NCBI RefSeq assembly: GCF_009755885.1
Contig: NZ_VYIX01000001.1
Coordinates: 392,419-456,418, forward strand
Direction of reading: 5' to 3'
Source of the DNA: Brachyspira sp. SAP_772
Lineage (GTDB): Bacteria > Spirochaetota > Brachyspiria > Brachyspirales > Brachyspiraceae
Length of the DNA: 64,000 nucleotides
The notes beneath the pieces were generated by a model. The model was given only the letters and a program-made list of their open reading frames with translations. It had not been told where the DNA came from and did not search any database. A program made the translations under genes and the position numbers. Of the stretch, positions 18,053 through 19,615 are shown one piece after another (the stretch's first letter is position 1; each line of letters starts with the position of its first letter).

Positions 18053-18138
18053 TTTAGGGGAGCTTGAAAAGGCTGAGAGTAAGTTTATAAAACTTAGACC
18101 CTTATAACCTGTTGGATAATGCCAGTGTAGGGAAATAA
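18053..18138 (+). ncRNA. TPP riboswitch (THI element)
   Basis: The conserved THI-box core is nearly complete: GGGGAGC, then GGCTGAGAG, then GACCCTTATAACCTG, TTGGATAATGCCAG and GTAGGGAA. These give the P2/P3 pyrimidine-sensing and P4/P5 pyrophosphate-sensing arms. It begins about 12 nt after the rubrerythrin stop. It is followed at once by an intrinsic terminator, so thiamine pyrophosphate is expected to switch off transcription of the downstream membrane-protein gene. Confidence 0.96.
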
Positions 18139-18153
18139 TTTTGTATAAAAAAT

Positions 18154-18189
18154 ACGAGATCAGTTTTCTTAAATTGGTCTCGTTTTTTT
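18154..18189 (+). terminator. intrinsic terminator of the TPP riboswitch
   Basis: ACGAGATCA at 18154-18162 pairs with TGGTCTCGT at 18174-18182 (one G-U) and is followed by seven T residues. This is the expression platform downstream of the aptamer. Confidence 0.85.
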
Positions 18190-18262
18190 ATTTTTCTAAT
18201 TTTATGCACTCATTATTTTCATTAAGGTTTCTATAAAAAAATATTAATTAAAGGAAATTTTT

Positions 18263-19615
18263 ATGAATAATGTTTCAAACTCTGAAAATGCTTTAAGCAG
18301 CAATGATTTAACTAATATTAAATTTAGTAAATCAATTTATTTAAAATTTATTGTTCTTAGTTTTATAGGTATATTTATGTTATTTATACCTATTAAGATA
18401 GGTGATGTTAAATCTATACCTATAGACCATTTAGTAAGTTTTATAAGAAAAATTCCATTTGTAGATCCTTATTATGGTATTTTTATAACTATGTTTGGAG
18501 GAATATATCCTTTTATAAGTAAGACTTGGAATAAAAATAAAACAGAAATATTTTTTTCATTTATTAAACTTACATCAATACCATTTATTATAATGGCATA
18601 TTTCAAATTAGGTCCTGATGATTTTCTAAAGCCTAATATGCTTCTTTTTTCTTATAATTTACTCACTCAAATAGCATTGATTAATAGTATAGGTTTTATA
18701 TTTTTATCGTTTTTAGTGGATTATGGACTTATGTCATTTGCTGGTATATTTATGCGTTGTATAATGAAGCCTATATGGAAAACTTCTGGAAGATCTTCTT
18801 TAGATGCTATAGCTTCATTTGTTGGAAGTTATTCTATTGCTCTTTTAATGACAAGTAAGGTTTATAAGAAAGGTTATTATTCTAAAAAAGAGGCCTGCAT
18901 AATAGCTACAGGATTTTCTACGGTTTCAACTACTTTTATGATAGTTGTAGCTAAGATGTTTGGGGTTATAGATAAATGGAATATATATTTTTTTGGCACT
19001 ATGTTAATAACATTTATAGTAACAGCTATAACTGTAAGACTTTATCCGTTAAGAAGTAAACCTAGCAATGGATATATGGATAAAGAAGTTGCAGAAGAAC
19101 CTATATACAGAGGGGGCAATATTTTTAAGATGGCATTAAATGAGGCTGCTGAAGTTGCTAGTCATTCTGACAAAGTTTTAAATAGTGTTGTTAAGAATCT
19201 AAAAGAGGGGCTTATGGTTTCTATTTCTGTAATGCCTAATTTTATGGCTATAACATTTATTGGGCTTTTGATAGTGAATTATACTCCTTTATTTAATCTT
19301 ATCAGCTATATATTTTTGCCTATAACTAAATTACTTGGGCTTGGAGATGAGGCTTATATAGTTGCAAAGGCTTGTTCTGTTACATTAGTTGAAATGTCAT
19401 GTTCTTCAAGTATTGTAATGTATGCTAGTCAATTTGCTAAGTCTGTGGTTGCTATTGTGTGTGTTGCAGAGATTTTATATTTTGCTGCTCCTATTCCTGT
19501 AATATTGGCTGTTGGTATACCTATAAAAATAAGAGATATGATGATAATATGGGTTGAGAGAATAATACTTTCATTGATATTTGCTGTGCCTTTTGCATAT
19601 TTCTTTCTTAGTTGA
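18263..19615 (+). CDS. YjiH/Gate-domain membrane protein under TPP control (candidate thiamine-related transporter)
   Basis: A 450-residue polytopic inner-membrane protein with about ten hydrophobic segments. It resembles YjiH and the nucleoside-recognition (Gate) family, related to spore maturation proteins and nucleoside transporters. The Gate-like repeats are ASFVGSYSIALLMTSKVYKKG (split across a membrane segment), CIIATGFSTVSTTFMIVVAK and AKACSVTLVEMSCSSSIVMY. A polar N-terminal tail of about 25 residues and a cytoplasmic loop (about 270-300) are seen. No enzymatic motif is visible. The TPP riboswitch and the nearby thiM gene argue for uptake of thiamine or its thiazole precursor. The substrate is an inference. 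Confidence 0.8.
   Translation: MNNVSNSENALSSNDLTNIKFSKSIYLKFIVLSFIGIFMLFIPIKIGDVKSIPIDHLVSFIRKIPFVDPYYGIFITMFGGIYPFISKTWNKNKTEIFFSFIKLTSIPFIIMAYFKLGPDDFLKPNMLLFSYNLLTQIALINSIGFIFLSFLVDYGLMSFAGIFMRCIMKPIWKTSGRSSLDAIASFVGSYSIALLMTSKVYKKGYYSKKEACIIATGFSTVSTTFMIVVAKMFGVIDKWNIYFFGTMLITFIVTAITVRLYPLRSKPSNGYMDKEVAEEPIYRGGNIFKMALNEAAEVASHSDKVLNSVVKNLKEGLMVSISVMPNFMAITFIGLLIVNYTPLFNLISYIFLPITKLLGLGDEAYIVAKACSVTLVEMSCSSSIVMYASQFAKSVVAIVCVAEILYFAAPIPVILAVGIPIKIRDMMIIWVERIILSLIFAVPFAYFFLS

Follow-up and report, generated by a model that had tools for sequence, protein, structure and literature searches.

Which compound is carried by a membrane protein whose gene stands under the control of a thiamine pyrophosphate (TPP) riboswitch, but which has no match to the known thiamine transporters? 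The question is raised by a 64,000-nucleotide stretch of the Brachyspira sp. SAP_772 genome (contig NZ_VYIX01000001.1, positions 392,419 to 456,418; hereafter the window), in which a TPP riboswitch precedes the gene for a YjiH-family protein with a Gate domain (the Gate gene), followed by a gene for a PhzF-family isomerase and by thiM, which encodes hydroxyethylthiazole kinase (Table 1). Our comparison of this locus across the genus suggests that, in Brachyspira, the Gate protein probably imports the thiazole half of vitamin B1, as a transporter not described before.

A TPP riboswitch precedes a Gate-domain protein and thiM

The aptamer (THI element) scores 60.9 bits with the RF00059 covariance model (gathering score 54.3) and covers model positions 1-105 of 105 (E = 1.7e-9 in the window). 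Judged by this match, it is a canonical aptamer with nothing unusual in its make-up. The first-pass annotation of this DNA had described a THI-box with its own terminator ahead of a Gate-domain protein, and thiM in the same region; our searches bear out both statements.

The product of the Gate gene has 450 amino acids and about ten hydrophobic segments. Its sole confident domain is Gate (PF07670; 46 bits, cut-off 29.6), which is matched by all 13 aligned members of the family. Together, family and hydrophobicity point to a transporter. Identity to proteins annotated as YjiH family is 36-37% over more than 90% of the length, while the two E. coli halves, YjiH and YjiG, are matched only weakly (8-13 bits with phmmer, no hit with BLASTP). 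The name YjiH therefore seems fair, since it is that of the annotated homologues. No NCBIfam model is matched, and a search of solved structures found no relative.

The protein also has no match, in Pfam or NCBIfam, to established families of thiamine transporters (ThiT, ThiBPQ, PnuT, CytX, ThiXYZ and YkoEDC), in agreement with the earlier suggestion that the candidate lies outside them. These families mediate TPP-regulated uptake of thiamine or of its pyrimidine precursor (4-amino-5-hydroxymethyl-2-methylpyrimidine, HMP), and the Gate protein would resemble them in functional class. THI elements ahead of transporters for thiamine or its precursors are well known, and the aptamer, the terminator and the predicted sequestration of the Shine-Dalgarno (SD) sequence are the same here; what is new is the regulated gene family, which is mostly uncharacterised.

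Table 1. Features of the Gate locus and of the second TPP riboswitch operon (positions in the window, or in L031 where so marked).
Feature	Location	Strand	Basis
TPP riboswitch aptamer (THI element)	18046..18150	+	RF00059 over its full length; CUGAGA and GGAUAAUGCC motifs both intact
Intrinsic terminator	18154..18193	+	13-bp stem 18154-18183, then T tract
Conserved anti-aptamer strand	18205..18231	+	complementary to aptamer 18106-18129; duplex -14.4 kcal/mol
Predicted SD-sequestering hairpin, AAGGTTTC with AAGGAAATTTTTATG, reaching the start codon	18221..18265	+	thermodynamic prediction
YjiH-family Gate-domain membrane protein, proposed thiazole transporter	18263..19615	+	PF07670, hydrophobic segments, upstream riboswitch
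PhzF-family isomerase gene, between Gate gene and thiM	19951..20742	+	PF02567, 165.7 bits
thiM, hydroxyethylthiazole kinase	20763..21557	+	TIGR00694, 277 bits (cut-off 256.4)
Second TPP riboswitch	L031 6745-6857	-	precedes SBP_bac_5 gene
OppA-like SBP_bac_5 lipoprotein	L031 4951-6591	-	3' of second TPP riboswitch

The arrangement is conserved across the genus

The Gate gene is present in 17 of 26 Brachyspira genomes, with one copy (G014) cut by a contig end. A TPP riboswitch lies directly upstream of all 16 full-length copies, i.e., that of the window and 15 others, and this recurrence excludes a chance association of the two. It also leaves no full-length Brachyspira homologue without the element, the observation that the first-pass annotation had held would speak against its proposal. 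In 15 of the 16, thiM is the next gene, or the next but one after phzF; in the remaining genome (G002), the contig ends past the Gate gene. The phzF gene accompanies one of two Gate clades, and lies at this place in every further member of it that was checked.

Four genomes without the Gate gene (G011, G015, G018 and G024) have the riboswitch 66-71 nucleotides before thiM, and G015 has retained the rubrerythrin flank as well. In the divergent G021, the order is riboswitch-thiM-thiE-HAD-thiD. By its gene order, riboswitch-thiM with or without the transporter is one regulatory unit. Both the riboswitch and its association with thiM and a YjiH-type gene are real and conserved features of these genomes.

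The leader may act at two levels

Comparison of the 16 Brachyspira leaders shows that the aptamer core and 17 bases downstream of it, TTTTCATTAAGGTTTCT, are invariant. The latter stretch can pair alternatively with the aptamer's 3' half or with the SD region. The duplex energy of the anti-aptamer strand is matched by 26 of 2,000 random pieces of the window; energy alone is therefore weak evidence for this pairing, and conservation is the stronger argument. The terminator is found in the leaders of the window, G001, G007, G025 and G012, and not in the remaining eleven. In thermodynamic predictions, the probability that the SD sequence is unpaired drops from approximately 0.55 to 0.02-0.08 once the aptamer is held folded. 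These predictions suggest that the leader switches in response to TPP via both terminator and SD sequestration, and that translational control would be general in Brachyspira, with the terminator confined to some lineages.

A probable exchange of the coding cassette between species

The flanks of the locus in the window (rubrerythrin, leader, thiM and downstream genes) have their best matches in B. pilosicoli records. The segment coding for the Gate protein and PhzF (about 18300-20700), by contrast, is approximately 92% identical in DNA to the B. alvinipulli group, versus approximately 77% for the Gate gene compared to B. pilosicoli, which has no phzF. These matches suggest that recombination swapped the coding cassette beneath a resident riboswitch and next to a thiM already in place, in keeping with an interchangeable functional unit. 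The intergenic region between the Gate gene and phzF (19660-19870) is GC-richer, is absent from the aligned relatives and contains GCGACCGAAGGAAGTACATTTAGGTATGCCGC, a 32-mer that occurs only once in the window; this region is possibly a dispersed genomic repeat.

Most Brachyspira genomes have the genes for salvage of both precursors

We determined the thiamine pathway complement via profile searches over the 26 Brachyspira genomes. ThiC was found in none of them, whereas 13 of 14 controls matched. No full-length ThiG was found in the genomes searched; the matches obtained span no more than about 90 of 247 positions, score 34 bits at best and were not accepted as ThiG. Thiamine pyrophosphokinase (TIGR01378) was detected only in G021 and G006, leaving 24 of 26 genomes without a match; ThiK-type kinases were not searched for. 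ThiE and ThiD each exceed the cut-off in 24 of 26 genomes, and ThiM was found in 24 of 26; the genomes without a ThiE, ThiD or ThiM match are drafts with 85-88% completeness. ThiL also passes in 24, the exceptions being the same two divergent genomes that have TIGR01378. G021 and G006 (L083 and L084) thus have the pyrophosphokinase in place of ThiL, the opposite of the other 24, and neither has a Gate gene.

Because ThiC, full-length ThiG and mostly the pyrophosphokinase are missing, yet ThiM, ThiD, ThiE and ThiL are present, this complement indicates that the main Brachyspira clade must build TPP only from salvaged HMP and 5-(2-hydroxyethyl)-4-methylthiazole (HET), unless it has a ThiK-type kinase or cleaves imported thiamine via TenA. 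The pattern ThiD, ThiE, ThiM and ThiL without ThiC and ThiG equals a published type of HMP and HET auxotroph that is defined by these four enzymes, and for which ThiW and ThiU are listed as HET transporters (PMC6593275). Only 64% of the predicted HET auxotrophs in a human gut collection had ThiW, which is thus missing in over a third (PMC6593275). ThiW and ThiU share with the Gate protein the TPP-pathway setting, thiM-dependent salvage and, as proposed here, HET uptake. However, ThiW is defined by PF09512, a domain for which the Gate protein has no match, having PF07670 only. PF09512 had no match in the 26 Brachyspira genomes and none in the controls either, so that absence of ThiW from the genus is not proven.

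A second TPP operon may serve the pyrimidine branch

The available sequence of the source genome has just one TPP riboswitch besides that at the Gate gene. In every genome read, this second riboswitch precedes a gene for an OppA-like SBP_bac_5 lipoprotein, and TenA often follows, although in the group to which the window belongs no TenA adjoins the operon. The arrangement with TenA suggests that the second operon handles the pyrimidine branch, with the lipoprotein as a candidate binding protein for a pyrimidine precursor.

Relatives outside Brachyspira are often linked to hut genes

Relatives outside the genus share 35-49% identity over nearly the full length, the nearest 46-49%. Several lie in histidine-utilisation (hut) clusters: that of G028 occurs with hutI, hutU, ftcD and fchA, those of G048 and G059 adjoin hutU, and that of G342 lies amid hutU, hutI and hutH. 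Alphaproteobacterial plasmid records (Pseudochrobactrum, Sinorhizobium and Paracoccus) likewise have YjiH proteins in hut clusters. No hut gene was found near the relative in the Vibrio, Aeromonas and Haloferax records or in G138, and one distant relative adjoins deoD. None of these relatives, hut-linked or not, has a TPP riboswitch directly upstream. One TPP match (L151 12021-12133, minus strand) was not counted as control of a YjiH gene, as it precedes an ABC transporter operon on the strand opposite to that gene. As a separate observation, TD-1 RNA (RF03155) lies upstream of Treponema-group Gate genes in G048 (L020 1323-1441, 129.7 bits) and G138 (L116 10662-10780, 122.2 bits), with only a weak match in G059; these TD-1/TD-2 matches have no bearing on the Brachyspira finding.

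In a phylogenetic tree, the Brachyspira proteins form one supported clade, while long branches elsewhere leave the deeper order unsure. We compared ten of them with eight hut-linked relatives. Each of positions 158, 331, 348, 376, 381 and 410 has a single residue in all eight relatives, for which all ten Brachyspira proteins have another (E158 to S/A, G331 to T, G348 to S, A376 to V, P381 to S and S410 to P); at the first five, the Vibrio, Aeromonas and deoD-linked proteins agree with the hut-linked relatives. Since the Brachyspira proteins differ at residues that are otherwise invariant, these replacements suggest a changed substrate.

What the Gate protein may carry

Taking all such readings together, the Gate protein very probably takes up a thiamine-related compound. 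With moderate confidence, we favour the view that the locus serves thiazole salvage under repression by TPP, and that the Gate protein imports HET. HET is the best guess for the substrate because TPP synthesis needs HMP and HET, thiM is linked to the Gate gene, and the pyrimidine side is assigned to the second operon; both the substrate and the inward direction of transport are deduced from this genomic context. The first-pass annotation had left the choice between thiamine and its thiazole moiety. A TPP-regulated transporter candidate linked to ThiM stands, but the substrate narrows to HET, as the main clade has neither the standard pyrophosphokinase nor precursor synthesis. Beyond that annotation, the comparison adds the hut context of many relatives, the residues particular to the Brachyspira clade, the second TPP operon and the predicted translational control in the leader. 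In the proposed mechanism, scarcity of TPP would open the aptamer, allowing bypass of the terminator, exposing the SD sequence and leading to synthesis of the Gate protein. Imported HET would be phosphorylated to HET phosphate by ThiM, encoded beside the Gate gene; ThiE would join this product with HMP pyrophosphate, made by ThiD, to thiamine monophosphate, from which ThiL would make TPP. Plentiful TPP would fold the aptamer and favour the terminator and SD sequestration.

Several points weigh against HET import. As a small, neutral molecule, HET may pass through membranes without a carrier. Several species retain riboswitch-thiM without a Gate gene, and in G010, which has no Gate gene either, no riboswitch lies near thiM; given its absence from these thiM-bearing species, the Gate protein is not indispensable. 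An AlphaFold model built from nine sequences reached a mean pLDDT (predicted local distance difference test) of only 32, leaving fold and binding site unsupported. Finally, thiamine taken up from outside could serve the cell, given intracellular cleavage by TenA or the presence of a ThiK-type kinase.

This last route underlies what we regard as the leading alternative, albeit an unlikely one: that the Gate protein imports thiamine itself, which is then cleaved by TenA and reassembled or phosphorylated by an unrecognised thiamine kinase. TPP control is typical of thiamine transporters, and many Brachyspira have a TenA-family gene with their second TPP operon, but not those in the group of the window. 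Moreover, the only two genomes with TIGR01378 have no Gate gene, and the gene is linked to ThiM, whose substrate is HET and not thiamine. Import of HMP or a close relative is slightly less probable still. HMP must come from outside given that ThiC is missing too, the Pfam name of the Gate family is 'nucleoside recognition', one aligned member weakly matches a nucleoside transporter C-terminal domain (E = 0.0027), and the deoD neighbour of the distant relative points the same way. In the loci read, however, the Gate gene is linked to thiM and never to thiD or tenA, and it is the binding protein of the second operon that is paired with TenA.

The hut-linked relatives raise a further alternative, in which the Brachyspira protein retains a likely ancestral role in the transport of an imidazole such as histidine or urocanate, under a TPP control that is incidental or has a different purpose. 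Although many of the nearest non-Brachyspira relatives lie in hut clusters, we consider this improbable: the copies there, beside hutH, hutU or hutI, have no upstream TPP riboswitch, whereas the Brachyspira copies form a separate clade with its own residues, and combine riboswitch control with thiM linkage throughout the genus. HET import could nevertheless be related to the function of these relatives. Tentatively, and with somewhat less than even confidence, we propose that the YjiH/Gate family includes carriers of five-membered nitrogen heterocycles, with histidine or urocanate (imidazole) for many members outside Brachyspira, and that the Brachyspira member was recruited under a TPP riboswitch, with changes at the substrate site, for the thiazole precursor of vitamin B1.

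Implications

A search of the available papers found no earlier link of the YjiH/Gate family to thiamine, and none of Brachyspira to TPP riboswitches. HET transporters are a recognised gap (PMC6593275), for which this locus offers a specific, testable candidate; if true, recruitment of a YjiH/Gate protein would fill part of it. The locus also hints at the cargo of a largely uncharacterised family. For the organism itself, the proposal predicts that the gut spirochaete Brachyspira depends on both halves of vitamin B1 from its gut surroundings, and not on thiamine alone.
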